Source: a virus. Taken from it: a stretch of 28,436 bases of DNA. The translations under genes were made by a program, and so were the position numbers. Positions within the stretch are counted from its first letter, which is position 1. Every line of letters begins with the position of its first letter. The stretch is taken from positions 1 through 28,436 of IMG/VR virus record IMGVR_UViG_3300009159_000237. The stretch is one strand, 5' to 3'. A model generated the notes under the pieces. It did not search any database, was not told where the DNA came from, and was given only the letters and a program-made list of their open reading frames with translations. This document shows, piece after piece, positions 1,539 to 23,175 of this stretch.

Positions 1539-2822
1539 TTATCCTACAATAACAACTCTATATTCACCAGAAGACGGAGCTACGGCAAATTTAATTGTAA
1601 CTACTGAATCTGATGTGTGTTGAACATCTGCTTCTATTTGATTGTAGTCTGCGTTAGTTTCAAACACCTGTACTGTAACATCTTTGGTTGCTAGATTGTG
1701 GGTTACTGTATAAGTTGTAGCTGTTCCGTCACCAATTGTTGTTGCGTATTTTCTAGCAATATTATGGTAACTTCCACCAACTTGACCAATCTGCCAAACA
1801 TCAGATGTCTCATTCCAAAGAATTTCAGCATCAGCTGAAGTGCCACGCTCTACAAGAATGCCAGCATCAGCTGTTGGAGCTCCTGTTGCATTGCTATTTA
1901 GCTTAACCTTATTGTCTTCAATATTAATTTGTGTTGTATTTACAGAGTTTACTGTTCCTATTACATTAAGGTTTCCACCTACCTGTAAATTACCAGTAAT
2001 TTCAACATTGTCTGGGAGGCCAATTGTAACTGCTGAATTTTCTGAGCCAGAACCTGAAACTTCAATTTCATTTGCTGTGCCAGCAATTGTTGCAACATAA
2101 TTACCAGTTGTATCTGTACCAAGAGCTACTGAGTTTGGCTGAATTGTAGTTGATATTGTTACATCGCCTAAATTGGTCATTGTTGCAGATCCGCTTACAT
2201 CTCCTGAAAGTGTAATTACTGGATCTTTATTAAGAGATACGGCTCCTGCTGTAACTGTAAAATCTGTTGCGTTAAATGAGGCAACACCCTTATTGCTAGA
2301 TGTTGCATCTTCTGCAGATACAGTAATTGTATTATTTGTTACTGCTACATCAATTCCTTCTCCGCCAGATACTGTAAGTGTATCTGTAAGTAGATCAACT
2401 GTGTCTGTTCCTGTATCTCCAGCAATTGAAAGATTTGTTGCTACGCTTACGGTTCCTGCAGCAGTTAAACGACCTTGAGCGTCTACTGTAAATGTAGGAA
2501 TTGCTGTTGTTGAACCATACGAGCCTGCTGTTACGGCAGTATCGTTTAATCTTATAGTGTGACTTCCAGATGGATCATTATATGTTGCTGTTAATCCAGT
2601 TCCTGCTACTACTGTTGAACCAATAACGTCTTGAATAACTTCTGTAGATCCAGATGCTGGAGTCCACTCTGTTCCGTTATAGAAAAACAGAACATTTGAA
2701 ACATTGTTATAGTAAAGTTGACCAGTGACTGGACTTGATGGTGCTGAAGCTAAATTTTGAATTCTTGCATTTAGCAACTCATTTTTATTAAGGTCTAAAC
2801 TGACCGCATACTTTCTTGCCAT
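1539..2822 (-). CDS. Phage tail fibre-like protein
   Basis: 427 aa. The N-terminal attachment-like module (about residues 30-58) contains TGQLYYNNVSNVLFFYNGTEW. A long Thr/Val/Ser/Gly-rich region follows with repeated beta-rich units (IAGDTGTD, LTVSGGEGI, NLQVGGNLNVIGTV), including the left-handed-helix-like NLQVGGNLNV type seen in trimeric fibres. The C-terminal approx 70 residues (YTVTHNLATKDVTVQVFE) look like the small beta domain found at the tips of phage minor tail proteins. Start has GGAGAA in the leader. A receptor-binding role is inferred. Confidence 0.85.
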   Translation of the reverse strand: MARKYAVSLDLNKNELLNARIQNLASAPSSPVTGQLYYNNVSNVLFFYNGTEWTPASGSTEVIQDVIGSTVVAGTGLTATYNDPSGSHTIRLNDTAVTAGSYGSTTAIPTFTVDAQGRLTAAGTVSVATNLSIAGDTGTDTVDLLTDTLTVSGGEGIDVAVTNNTITVSAEDATSSNKGVASFNATDFTVTAGAVSLNKDPVITLSGDVSGSATMTNLGDVTISTTIQPNSVALGTDTTGNYVATIAGTANEIEVSGSGSENSAVTIGLPDNVEITGNLQVGGNLNVIGTVNSVNTTQINIEDNKVKLNSNATGAPTADAGILVERGTSADAEILWNETSDVWQIGQVGGSYHNIARKYATTIGDGTATTYTVTHNLATKDVTVQVFETNADYNQIEADVQHTSDSVVTIKFAVAPSSGEYRVVIVG

Positions 2823-4020: not shown

Positions 4021-5955
4021 CTAACCAGATATATCTACAATCTCACAATTGCCATCTGAGCTACACGCTAAAGTTTGAGTTCCAGAAGTTCCATCCTCTG
4101 TTTCGTAAAAAGACAAATCTTCCCAACGAATAGTCTTTGGCATACGAGATAACAAATCGTTATACTCCTGTTCTGTAGTTTCTTGATATGGCGCTTGTTT
4201 ATATGTGTGATCTGAATGAGGTAAGAACGAAATTCCTGATACCTCATCAAAATGCTTATATACCCAAGCTCCCACTTCCATCCACTCATCTTCTTTTACA
4301 GAAACTGTAATTGATGGCTTATGTTCACACCAAGCACGTTGATAAACCAACCAAGTATTAAGATGTTCAATAGCGGTTAAATCATTTCTAAGAATTGCAC
4401 CTTCTGGAGCTTTTACTGGAAATGAAAATACATAAGTATCGTTTGGTTTCATTACATCATCTTCTACAGGAATTCCAACTTCTTTTAAGAAAGTTGAAAT
4501 TGGATCTTTTTTATCTCCACGTACCGTGCGAGTATAATATTGTGAATGCCATGGATGCATTCCTGAGCTAACCCCGACCAATTGAGATACTGTGCCTGAT
4601 GGCTTAACGCATGTTACTGCGGCTGAAGCGGGAATCCCAATTTTCCCTGCTTCTGCAATATTTGTATTTACTGCTTTTTCTCTTAAATCAGATAAAACTT
4701 TTTCTAGTTTATCAAGACCTTCTTTTCCAGAAAAAAACTTGTGTCCAAATTGTCCTGTTAAAGAAACTCCTAGCAGACGTTCTTCTTCTGTATTATCTTT
4801 CCAAATTTTACGAAGATATTTAAAATCAGTTAATGTTGCTTGCCATGTTCCAAGAATAGTTGCAAGTCTGACCTTATCTTCAACATCTTTAATTGTATCT
4901 TTTTCACGTAATACGACTTCTGAAAGATTACAAAACTGATAGGGACGTAAAATAATTTCTGAGCACGGATTTGTTCCATAATGTATTTCTGAGCTTCTGC
5001 GACCATACTTTGCAGCTTGTGCTTGCGCTGCTGCCACATTATAGATTCCACGCTCACCCGATTTTGAGTCATAAAGAGATTTCCATTCTGCAATAAATTG
5101 CTCCATGTCTGGCTTACGAGAATAAGCAACAGAATTATTAGAAAGTGCACGTTGAGCATTATGTTCCCACCAATTACCTGATTTGGCTTGAGCCATTTCA
5201 ATATCGTTAATATTTGAAAGAGAAATCATAGCTGATCTACGAACTCCGCCAACAACTACAATTTCTCCAATCTTGCACATGATATCATGAGCTTCAATTG
5301 GTTTTAATTGACGACCAACCGCAGATTTAAACTTTGCAATTGTAAAATCAAAAAGATTTACTAATGGCTGTGGACCAGATGAACGACCACCCATTGTTTT
5401 GAGACGAGCACCTGATGGGCGTAATTTACTTACATCAATTGCTGGAATTTGTCCTGACCAGAGAAGAGCCAAAAGTTCACGATAAGCTTTTGCCCAACCG
5501 TTCTTTGAATCTTCCACCATAATAACTGTATTAGATTTTTCTAGTGTATCTGGGACGGCAGGAAGCTTATTAACATATTTATATTCAACAGAAAATCCAA
5601 CTCCTGTCCCGCACATAAGAATATACATTGTTTCATCAAATGATCTTGGAGAATCTACTGGAACAAAAGAGCAATTATACCCTGCCACATGATCTCTATC
5701 TAATGCTGCTCCAGCAGTCATGACTGATCTCATTGATGGCATAACATTACGATTAAAGACTGCAGATTTAATTTCTTCAACAATTTTTTTATCAGGGATA
5801 TAAGAATGTTCTTTTTCTAGATGACCAAGCATAAAAGTAAAGTATCTATCTACTGTTTCTCCCCAGGTTTCACGACGATTTTCTTCTGGCATCCATCTTG
5901 CATATCTAGACAACGCAATAAAATTTTCATAAGGGTTTTCAATAGTTCTTGACAT
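4021..5955 (-). CDS. nrdJ: Adenosylcobalamin-dependent ribonucleotide reductase (class II, monomeric)
   Basis: 644 aa. Reduces ribonucleotides to deoxyribonucleotides for phage DNA synthesis using coenzyme B12. GTGVGFSVEY (about 116-125) and the active site NPCSEIILRPYQFCNLSEV are characteristic of the monomeric Lactobacillus leichmannii-type enzyme. Expected residues are visible: thiyl-radical Cys331, Glu333 and Asn329, the redox pair Cys95 (AGYNCSF) and Cys342, and a C-terminal reducing pair Cys631/Cys637 (ACSSDGNCEI). It is shorter than the approx 739-aa lactobacillar enzyme. Being class II it needs no oxygen and no NrdB partner but depends on host cobalamin. The start follows a weak AGGT site. 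No cobalamin riboswitch was seen in its leader. Confidence 0.93.
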   Translation of the reverse strand: MSRTIENPYENFIALSRYARWMPEENRRETWGETVDRYFTFMLGHLEKEHSYIPDKKIVEEIKSAVFNRNVMPSMRSVMTAGAALDRDHVAGYNCSFVPVDSPRSFDETMYILMCGTGVGFSVEYKYVNKLPAVPDTLEKSNTVIMVEDSKNGWAKAYRELLALLWSGQIPAIDVSKLRPSGARLKTMGGRSSGPQPLVNLFDFTIAKFKSAVGRQLKPIEAHDIMCKIGEIVVVGGVRRSAMISLSNINDIEMAQAKSGNWWEHNAQRALSNNSVAYSRKPDMEQFIAEWKSLYDSKSGERGIYNVAAAQAQAAKYGRRSSEIHYGTNPCSEIILRPYQFCNLSEVVLREKDTIKDVEDKVRLATILGTWQATLTDFKYLRKIWKDNTEEERLLGVSLTGQFGHKFFSGKEGLDKLEKVLSDLREKAVNTNIAEAGKIGIPASAAVTCVKPSGTVSQLVGVSSGMHPWHSQYYTRTVRGDKKDPISTFLKEVGIPVEDDVMKPNDTYVFSFPVKAPEGAILRNDLTAIEHLNTWLVYQRAWCEHKPSITVSVKEDEWMEVGAWVYKHFDEVSGISFLPHSDHTYKQAPYQETTEQEYNDLLSRMPKTIRWEDLSFYETEDGTSGTQTLACSSDGNCEIVDISG

Positions 5956-6036
5956 AATATACCTGTTTCTCCGCCTTGCGGTTGTTTAATTTTTGAGTGA
6001 AATCCTAGTGTATCAAACTTTATTTAAATGGGGAAG

Positions 6037-7888: not shown

Positions 7889-8021
7889 GTGTGCTTGTGG
7901 TAATTGCAACTGTAAATCATTTGTAGACACCCAAATGAATGAATCAGTATTGATTAATGTAACAGATAACATGGGTCGAGTAATTTTTTGGGAAGATATA
8001 GGTAGACCAATTGGAGAATGA
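7878..8021 (+). CDS. Cys-rich micro-protein
   Basis: 47 aa, unrecognised. Cysteines cluster at the N-terminus (MDHECACGNCNCKSF), a plausible metal-binding knot, followed by a short beta-like tail (VLINVTDNMGRVIFWEDIGRP). The start overlaps the previous gene by 11 bp, with AAAGAGGTAG 4-6 nt upstream, supporting coupled translation. Confidence 0.7.
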   Translation: MDHECACGNCNCKSFVDTQMNESVLINVTDNMGRVIFWEDIGRPIGE

Positions 8022-8211
8022 AACAACTAATCTAGAAGATAACCTACCAATGGTCAACTATATTATGCTTCACAGAATATATGATATGTTAGCATTAATA
8101 GCAAATCATTTGGCAGATCCAGAAGAAGTGGCTAAAATGGTTAGCTATCATGAACAAGGGTTCCTTCTTGGTCCAGTCCCGTCTTATTCTCCTTCAGAAG
8201 AAAATGCTTGA
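8011..8211 (+). CDS. Small acidic protein, TTG start likely
   Basis: 66 aa from TTG at 8011, overlapping the preceding gene by 11 bp; the first ATG in frame (8050) would give 53 aa with no better ribosome site. Contains an amphipathic helix (MLHRIYDMLALIANHLADPEEVAKMV). Start uncertain, function unknown. Ends beside the promoter of the putative small RNA. Confidence 0.65.
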   Translation: MENETTNLEDNLPMVNYIMLHRIYDMLALIANHLADPEEVAKMVSYHEQGFLLGPVPSYSPSEENA

Positions 8212-8236
8212 CATTGAATAACAGATAATCTACAAT
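8208..8236 (+). promoter_or_regulatory. Strong sigma70-type promoter for small RNA
   Basis: TTGACA (8208-8213), 17-bp spacer, TACAAT (8231-8236). Start of transcription is expected near 8242-8243, exactly where the first stem of the downstream RNA begins. No ORF follows before the terminator. Confidence 0.75.
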
Positions 8237-8241
8237 AAATT

Positions 8242-8331
8242 TGTATGGGTCGTAGCATCCCACATGTTCCCCATACATTGCATCGTAAGGTGCCAGAGCC
8301 CAATTGGATCCGCCTCCGATTGGGTTTTCTG
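8242..8331 (+). ncRNA. Putative structured small RNA, about 90 nt
   Basis: Bounded by a near-consensus promoter and an intrinsic terminator, with no credible ORF inside. It folds by eye into three stems: TGTATGGG (8242-8249) with CCCATACA (8270-8277), an 8-bp outer stem; GCATC/GGTGC (8279-8292) closed by a GTAA (GNRA-type) tetraloop; and the terminator stem at 8299-8324. It matches no RNA family I recognise. Role unknown; a regulatory or host-interfering RNA is possible. Confidence 0.65.
8299..8330 (+). terminator. Rho-independent terminator
   Basis: 10-bp stem CCCAATTGGA/TCCGATTGGG (one G-U pair), 6-nt loop, followed by TTTTCTGTTT. A textbook intrinsic terminator ending the small RNA unit. 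Confidence 0.85.
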
Positions 8332-8406: not shown

Positions 8407-8436
8407 TTGACAATTTTGAGCATAAAATGCTAATAT
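8407..8436 (+). promoter_or_regulatory. Leaderless-type promoter
   Basis: TTGACA (8407-8412), 18-bp spacer, TAATAT (8431-8436), then exactly 6 nt to the ATG at 8443. The transcript would start at or next to the start codon. Confidence 0.75.
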
Positions 8437-9032: not shown

Positions 9033-9033
9033 G

Positions 9034-9106
9034 CTGGTCCACCAGGTCTCGATCCTGGGACATTCGCATTAACAGTGCGACGCTCTACCAACTGAGCTAT
9101 GGACCA
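9034..9106 (-). tRNA. tRNA-Asn (anticodon GUU)
   Basis: Minus-strand cloverleaf, 73 nt: 7-bp acceptor TGGTCCA/TGGACCA, D arm GCTC/GAGC, anticodon stem TCGCA/TGCGA with loop CTGTTAA, 5-nt variable loop, T stem CCAGG/CCTGG with loop ATCGAGA (A where U54 is usual), discriminator G as expected for Asn. CCA is not encoded and must be added by the host. Confidence 0.93.
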
Positions 9107-9132
9107 ATATTTTTTATATTCCCGCGAAATTG

Positions 9133-9205
9133 TAGGGATAGTGAGATTTGAACTCACAGTCGTTTGTATATAAGACAAATGCTTTAACCATTAAGCTACA
9201 TCCCC
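9133..9205 (-). tRNA. tRNA-Ile (anticodon UAU)
   Basis: Minus-strand cloverleaf, 73 nt: acceptor GGGGATG/TATCCCT (two G-U pairs), D arm GCTT/AAGC, anticodon stem TTTGT/ACAAA with loop CTTATAT (anticodon TAT), T stem GTGAG/CTCAC with loop TTCAAAT, discriminator A. CCA not encoded. UAU reads AUA directly, unlike the usual bacterial CAU tRNA that needs lysidine. Confidence 0.9.
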
Positions 9206-12243: not shown

Positions 12244-12438
12244 ATGTTAGATTTTGATGTTGCCTTCGAAATTAAAACTTGGTTTGATGACATGCTAAAC
12301 GAATCGTATCCAGTTTTTGAAATTGGAAATTTAACTTTTACCGCCTCGCAAATTTTGCGAGAGTGTGACCCGATTGCTTATCGCCAATCGCTTTTGGATT
12401 TCGAGGACACAATTATTGAAAACGAAAGGGCGGAATAA
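12244..12438 (+). CDS. Hypothetical phage protein
   Basis: 64 aa, acidic. Pattern FEIKTWFDDMLNES, then FEIGNLTFTASQILRECDPIAYR, then an acidic helix. It resembles small unknown proteins I recall from actinobacteriophage early regions, but I cannot name a family. Starts directly after the preceding TAA. Confidence 0.8.
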   Translation: MLDFDVAFEIKTWFDDMLNESYPVFEIGNLTFTASQILRECDPIAYRQSLLDFEDTIIENERAE

Positions 12439-12439
12439 A

Positions 12440-12556
12440 ATGAATAAAAATAATTTAAATTATGATATTTTTGGTTTTGCTAATGTAATTAATATTGATC
12501 ATTTAACAGATGAACAAATTTTAGAATTAGAAAAAATATTTGATGACTATGAATAA
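12440..12556 (+). CDS. Small acidic Asn-rich protein
   Basis: 38 aa (begins MNKNNLNYDIFGFANVINID, ends with an acidic helix LTDEQILELEKIFDDYE). Preceded by GAAAGGGCGGAAT. More A+T-rich than neighbours. Function unknown. Confidence 0.7.
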   Translation: MNKNNLNYDIFGFANVINIDHLTDEQILELEKIFDDYE

Positions 12557-22840: not shown

Positions 22841-22866
22841 CAACAGTTAAAGAGGCGGAGATAAAA

Positions 22867-23175
22867 ATGGCTAGAAAAGTACCTGAACAAAAAATAGCGG
22901 AACAGTTGGCGGAACTGATGAACAATCATAATTTCAATCCTGCTGTCTTTGCTAATCTAATAGTAAATGAACAATCATTATACACGCAAGACAGATTAGT
23001 TGAGTTAATGACTCACATAATCGAGTATCAAGATACGAGATTCAAAATCGAGTGGGACTTAAATAAAACCTCAGCAGGTTTAATGCTAAGTTCACATTTG
23101 GCGGAAGTAATAGCAGTCCATAAAAACCCTATATCAGATACACAGATGGTTCTCCCATTTGGATTCATATCATGA
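22867..23175 (+). CDS. Hypothetical phage protein
   Basis: 102 aa. Helical N-terminus (EQKIAEQLAELMNNHNFNPAVFANLI) followed by a region with TQDRLVELMTHIIEYQ, unrecognised. Start preceded by GAGGCGGAGAT. Overlaps the next gene by 4 bp. Confidence 0.82.
   Translation: MARKVPEQKIAEQLAELMNNHNFNPAVFANLIVNEQSLYTQDRLVELMTHIIEYQDTRFKIEWDLNKTSAGLMLSSHLAEVIAVHKNPISDTQMVLPFGFIS

Follow-up and report, generated by a model that had tools for sequence, protein, structure and literature searches.

In phage T4, the RegA protein and the ribosome compete for the initiation regions of ~30 mRNAs, and the RegA sites are largely A+U-rich and either overlap the AUG or lie just 5' to it (PMC3014915). In the sections of a review of phage small RNAs that we draw on (PMC12197685), sar and OOP base-pair with phage mRNAs, each as the antisense of one gene; host dnaN is the target of PreS, and VpdS has both host and phage RNAs as targets, these two working with Hfq. 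As presented in these sections, the known phage small RNAs either control a single gene of the phage in cis or act together with Hfq on RNAs of host and phage (PMC12197685). Phage small RNAs known to control more than one gene of their own phage are few. Among those covered in the same sections, none does so through one conserved operator (PMC12197685).

Here we analysed a stretch of viral DNA of 28,436 nucleotides (the window), which corresponds to positions 1 to 28,436 of the IMG/VR virus record IMGVR_UViG_3300009159_000237. The window contains a structured RNA of ~90 nt that is probably a trans-acting phage small RNA (we put the probability at about 0.68), which would pair with phage leaders and thereby repress mainly replication genes. 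The features of its locus are as follows:

8011..8211, plus strand: last gene of the lysozyme operon, 5' of the small RNA; its 3' end overlaps the -35 box
8208..8236, plus strand: small-RNA promoter TTGACA-17-TACAAT, with 11/12 consensus matches
8242..8331, plus strand: small RNA, ~90 nt, delimited by folding, covariance model and covariation
8242..8277, plus strand: hairpin 1, made of an outer stem, a 2-nt bulge, an inner stem and an apical loop; the bulge motif is of the type GG-UC-G(U)AG / CUCC
8280..8293, plus strand: hairpin 2, a GUAA tetraloop closed by C-G
8294..8331, plus strand: intrinsic terminator hairpin and U tract, with the tail UUUUCUGUUU
8309..8314, plus strand: invariant hexaloop UCCGCC, the predicted seed, inside the invariant AUCCGCCU (8308-8315)

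A sequence-only reading of this stretch had proposed a discrete structured RNA with its own promoter and without a reading frame, in which three stems, one of them with a GTAA tetraloop, are followed by a terminator. All of these points hold. The TTGACA box at 8208 is separated by a 17-nt spacer from the TACAAT box, which ends at 8236, and this spacing is kept in the homologues. The predicted start (8242) is, as proposed, the first paired base of the small RNA. The minimum free energy of 8242-8331 is -37.5 kcal/mol, versus -21.5 +/- 3.2 kcal/mol for dinucleotide shuffles (z = -5.04), and none of 200 shuffles folds as low. No plausible reading frame was found in the small RNA, which is overlapped by mechanical minus-strand ORFs only. 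At the level of sequence, it thus has the own promoter, the intrinsic terminator and the lack of a reading frame that characterize trans-acting small RNAs. The terminator hairpin can also end transcripts of the upstream lysozyme operon. Shortly 3' of the small RNA, the window has genes for tRNA-Asn(GTT) and tRNA-Ile(TAT) at 9033-9205 on the minus strand; tRNA-like sequence also closely follows several of the homologous copies.

None of the 4227 families of Rfam 15 reaches its gathering score at the small RNA in the window, in agreement with the earlier statement that it matches no recognised RNA family. Only two tRNAs pass the Rfam 15 thresholds in the window, and six divergent homologue loci searched against the same release likewise gave tRNAs only. 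A literature search limited to open-licence PMC papers found no prior description of the small RNA.

In IMG/VR, scanning for exact matches to the terminator core and to the hairpin-1 motif gave, after filtering, copies at ~225 loci in freshwater viral contigs. A covariance model (R1) recovers the window copy with 96.1 bits (E = 1.4e-21) and finds one true sense copy per genome in 20/20 large phage records; the weaker antisense matches at the same places are due to the near-palindromic terminator. The model found no copy in three Streptomyces phage relatives. Among the scanned genomes of 84,980 species of bacteria and archaea, two matches came up, both without a terminator and apparently due to chance; these (L177 and L178) lie in coding sequence and were rejected as homologues. 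A search of phage DNA using the element alone returned chance promoter-like matches only.

The phages that carry the small RNA have relatives among the Streptomyces phages of the Stanwilliamsviridae, with a class II ribonucleotide reductase (RNR) that is 66% identical and with homologues of capsid, terminase, DnaE, DnaB and WhiB. WhiB and these relatives point to an actinobacterial host. Two cultured phages of Nanopelagicales, E7 and F5, belong to a different family and are 39 kb in size. For one of the relatives without the small RNA, Streptomyces phage Angela (L253/L342-L344), the annotation lists a tmRNA as well as an RNA-binding protein of the Ro-like kind. A Ro-type RNA-binding partner of the small RNA was considered and rejected, as the Ro protein of Angela is without a homologue in the 15 genomes with the small RNA.

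The sequence-only reading had named compensatory changes in homologues as a check, and all three stems do covary. In a MAFFT alignment of 43 non-redundant copies, double changes are seen in 20/28 pairs, and the covariation score is 0.324 versus 0.184 for shuffled alignments. With 95 distinct copies aligned by the model, an alignment that leans towards the covariance model, double changes are seen in 23/28 pairs, 95.6% of the cells are paired, and the score is 0.490, compared with 0.182 +/- 0.006 for shuffles and at most 0.129 for slid partners; none of 500 shuffles reaches the observed score. Hairpin 1 has 10/12 pairs changed on both sides (95.6% of cells paired) and a conserved bulge motif, GGUYG. 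Hairpin 2 has double changes in 5/5 pairs and is variable between lineages, being missing in the shortest homologues (L026, L053 and L235). In the terminator, 8/11 pairs have double changes and 99.1% of cells are paired. All 110 copies matched by the promoter pattern have a spacing of exactly 17 nt, and in 13 of 15 genomes the promoter reaches a score of 11/12 or more, which just 4-14 sites per genome do. This covariation and the fixed promoter spacing support the proposal of a discrete RNA, and the earlier observation was both right and understated. One contig, L209, carries a second copy consisting of the terminator hairpin only (1367-1393 and 2384-2410, minus strand), about 1 kb away; the extra hairpin sits directly after a stop codon.

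In the terminator, the hexaloop UCCGCC within AUCCGCCU is 100% conserved in alignment A3. Because the terminator-based scans required this loop, copies found by hairpin 1 alone were checked, and the hexaloop is present in 126/126 true copies; four other hairpin-1 pattern matches are unrelated sequences without the remaining structure. Each of the six loop bases has a predicted unpaired probability of 1.0, and the stem that closes the loop retains a G-U wobble in several different ways. Since the loop is invariant in the main family, no compensatory change between RNA and target is visible. In a more distant lineage, a divergent homologue with the loop ACCGCA is present at the same locus (L379, ~3090-2960, minus strand), and homologues of this type are also found in L424, L429, L431, L432, L435 and L436. 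The L379 lineage has a canonical RNR leader, and CTGCGG occurs in the leaders of 0 of 191 genes on its partial contigs. Mimicry of the 16S rRNA 3' end (GGAUCACCUCC versus GGAUCCGCCUCC) is probably due to chance, because the commoner variant CGGAUCCGCCUCUG, L072 and L102 break the likeness and retain AUCCGCCU. The hairpin-1 apical loop was also tried as a seed and dropped, since leaders show no enrichment of its complement, GTGGGA.

The complement of the hexaloop is AGGCGGA(U). Genome-wide enrichment of GGCGGA was discarded, as it comes mostly from Gly-Gly codons; since these inflate the genome-wide counts, leader-specific tests were used, in which the leaders of 15 near-complete phage genomes (L256-L341) were set against the beginning of the coding regions. 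Upstream of starts, AGGCGG was observed 53 times versus 11.2 expected and GGCGGA 45 times versus 14 expected, whereas GGTGGA was observed 8 times versus 13.8 expected. None of the ortholog families in the 15 genomes conserves GGTGGA or GGGGGA. Among all hexamers, GGCGGA ranks 11th for ortholog families that conserve its occurrence at the ribosome-binding site, and those that outrank it belong for the most part to Shine-Dalgarno variants, TATAAT or the AACGAAAG motif. With refined starts, AGGCGGA is found in the leaders of RNR (14/15 genomes), DnaE (12/15), DnaB (8/15) and families 76 (13/13), 74 (9/10) and 53 (7/15), counts to be read with the fact that these families were picked after the motif was seen and that orthologs are not independent. 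Control leaders (primase, SSB, RecA, Cas4, TerL, WhiB and MCP) have the motif in 0/103 cases. The predicted targets in the window are the following:

4021..5955, minus strand: class II (NrdJ-like) RNR, predicted target gene (PHROG 367, E = 5.7e-185)
5970..5976, minus strand: predicted target site AGGCGGA in the RNR leader, complementary to the loop over 7 nt without a mismatch (duplex -13.3 kcal/mol)
12429..12434, plus strand: weaker candidate site GGCGGA, just 5' of the ATG at 12440
22853..22859, plus strand: predicted target site AGGCGGA in the family 76 leader, with an 8-bp loop duplex (-15.7 kcal/mol), 7 nt 5' of the ATG of the gene below
22867..23175, plus strand: small protein of family 76 (MARKVPEQKIAEQLAELMNNHNFNP...), predicted target gene

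The site lies at the Shine-Dalgarno position in most target leaders and further upstream in the RNR leaders. Family 76 leaders, which in several genomes carry sites in tandem, are otherwise divergent and without AGGAGG. The family 74 site overlaps the 3' end of the preceding gene, where Ala is apparently encoded as GCG, a codon that makes up 5% of Ala codons. GGCGGA is present in 117 of 121 distinct RNR leaders. In the window (5985-5968, minus strand) and in homologues, this leader holds a small hairpin, CCGC-NNG-GCGG. The exceptions to GGCGGA (L107, with CCATAAGGTGG, L108 and L195) retain the hairpin and look compensatory; the RNR leader thus conserves a structure in its own right, and GGCGGA may be kept there for a reason other than the small RNA. 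Overall, these comparisons suggest that the best-supported targets of the small RNA are the phage's own mRNAs. The hexaloop would then be the seed of a trans-acting base-pairing RNA, being conserved, accessible by prediction and complementary to conserved sites at unlinked mRNAs.

The motif largely occurs together with the small RNA. A scan anchored on RNR, and blind to the small RNA, gave 80 loci. The closest relatives have GGCGG in their RNR leaders, and most of those in which the RNA site is covered have the small RNA (clearly so in 17 cases; in an additional one, L352, the contig breaks off within the promoter of the RNA). In contrast, relatives without the small RNA (RNR 71-82% identical) have other leaders, often canonical AGGAG. 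There are exceptions on both sides: L366, L367 and L377 have the small RNA and an RNR leader without GGCGG, and the partial contigs L346, L348, L360 and L376 have GGCGG at RNR and no RNA at the usual place. In relatives without the small RNA, the motif is absent at the predicted target genes. GGCGGA occurs in 50 of 2280 leaders in 15 genomes with the RNA versus 0 of 569 in six relatives without it, and it is the hexamer that best separates the two sets (rank 1 of 362, Fisher p = 1.3e-5, a value that ignores shared ancestry); AGGCGG ranks 4th of 362 in the same comparison. In phage Angela, GGCGGA is found in 0 of 218 leaders. A second clade-specific leader motif, AACGAAAG(G), is conserved at the ribosome-binding-site position in families 70, 71, 73 and 113 of the 15 genomes. 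It is scarce in relatives without the small RNA and has no complement in the small RNA; clade-specific leader motifs can therefore arise for other reasons.

The RNA is structured and conserved, its loop is predicted to be accessible and is complementary to leaders in which the complement is conserved in a gene-specific manner, and the motif and the RNA co-occur. From this we infer transcription of the small RNA, its actual pairing, repression rather than activation, and the timing of the effect. In the proposed mechanism, the small RNA would be driven by a strong promoter of its own and ended by its own terminator, and the invariant C-rich terminator hexaloop (AUCCGCCU) would be the seed. This seed would pair with AGGCGGA in the leaders of RNR, DNA polymerase III alpha, DnaB helicase and two small proteins, and the pairing would block 30S binding, leading to joint repression of mainly replication genes. 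Given that the site is at the Shine-Dalgarno position in most targets, competition with the 30S subunit would be the simplest mode; at RNR, where the site lies further upstream inside the small hairpin, the effect could differ. The wider claim is that one small RNA, via one invariant loop, coordinately shuts down (or times) the translation of replication genes in a large and conserved set of uncultured actinobacterial phages from fresh water, with AGGCGGA as a shared RNA operator; on the present sequence comparisons, the odds for it seem to us about even.

It is possible that the conserved hairpin 1 has a protein partner. In a stronger form of this idea, the small RNA would bind a host or phage protein, as a decoy or scaffold, through the hairpin-1 bulge GGUYG(U)AG/CUCC and the hexaloop, and AGGCGGA would be an unrelated clade-specific ribosome-binding-site variant or a protein operator. 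This would account for the strongly conserved unpaired bases of hairpin 1, which target pairing does not explain, and it is consistent with the apical loop, whose complement shows no enrichment in leaders, and with the precedent of the AACGAAAG motif. However, it gives no reason why the complement of the loop, of all hexamers, best separates genomes with the RNA from those without it, and why the middle base of the motif is a C, which weakens pairing with 16S rRNA. We therefore consider it unlikely as a replacement for pairing with phage leaders. The two are not exclusive, since the same RNA may bind a protein with hairpin 1 and pair through its loop.

The small RNA might also act mainly on host mRNAs, for example in a takeover of translation, the matches in phage leaders being secondary. 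C-rich loops of Gram-positive small RNAs often target G-rich ribosome-binding sites, which fits the loop described here. There is also a precedent in lambda PreS, which acts on a host mRNA according to the sections of the review cited above (PMC12197685). Nevertheless, the phage's own leaders already explain the loop, and a role confined largely to the host appears quite improbable.

The gene order around the small RNA bears on whether it could be a leader. Upstream of it lie a lysozyme-like gene in 214/225 loci and the next small gene in 209/225, and RNR and a glycosyltransferase gene are divergent and further upstream. The downstream genes vary, and in the window they have a promoter of their own (8407-8436). 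Because its place is fixed and the downstream genes are not conserved, the small RNA is not the leader of a particular gene, which agrees with the sequence-only reading that its position is unlike a leader's; the fixed downstream gene in the same transcript that marks a cis-acting leader or riboswitch is lacking. That the small RNA does no more than terminate or attenuate the lysozyme operon, or serves the following gene as a cis-acting leader, is very improbable: it does stand at the 3' end of that operon and does end in a terminator, but it has a conserved promoter of its own, its hairpins 1 and 2 covary, the genes that follow it change, and its loop is invariant, which is not required of a terminator.

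Among described RNAs, the 6C RNA of Actinobacteria (Rfam; PMC6582537) is likewise a structured actinobacterial RNA with C-rich loops. It differs in that the small RNA gives no match to its Rfam model at E <= 10, has the loop UCCGCC instead of a six-C run, let alone two loops of six or more C, and is found in phages only. The best sub-threshold Rfam match (E <= 10) is ctRNA_pGA1 (RF00236), a plasmid antisense RNA, with 23.1 bits versus a cut-off of 45. This reflects a weak local similarity of the terminator hairpin only; nothing is shared in hairpin 1, context or seed. With lambda PreS and OOP, VP882 VpdS and P22 sar, as portrayed in the review sections used here, the proposed RNA would have in common that it is a phage-encoded regulatory small RNA. 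The difference is that its single invariant loop is complementary to the leaders of several unlinked phage genes.

The closest parallel is T4 RegA. Because RNR, DnaE and DnaB are replication genes, the proposed circuit resembles that of RegA, in which one phage-encoded repressor acts at the initiation regions of many pre-late phage mRNAs, including those of DNA replication genes. In the manner of a RegA-type shared operator, AGGCGGA stands at RNR, DnaE, DnaB and two small families, and would serve as their operator. If this is true, freshwater actinobacterial phages have an RNA-based control of replication genes comparable to RegA, the non-canonical ribosome-binding-site motif in these genomes is accounted for, and a compact pair of small RNA and operator (7 nt) is at hand that laboratory strains would suffice to test, without culturing the phage. 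The comparison is one of analogy, as there is no homology: RegA is a protein, whereas the repressor proposed here is an RNA, which is predicted to read AGGCGGA by base pairing.
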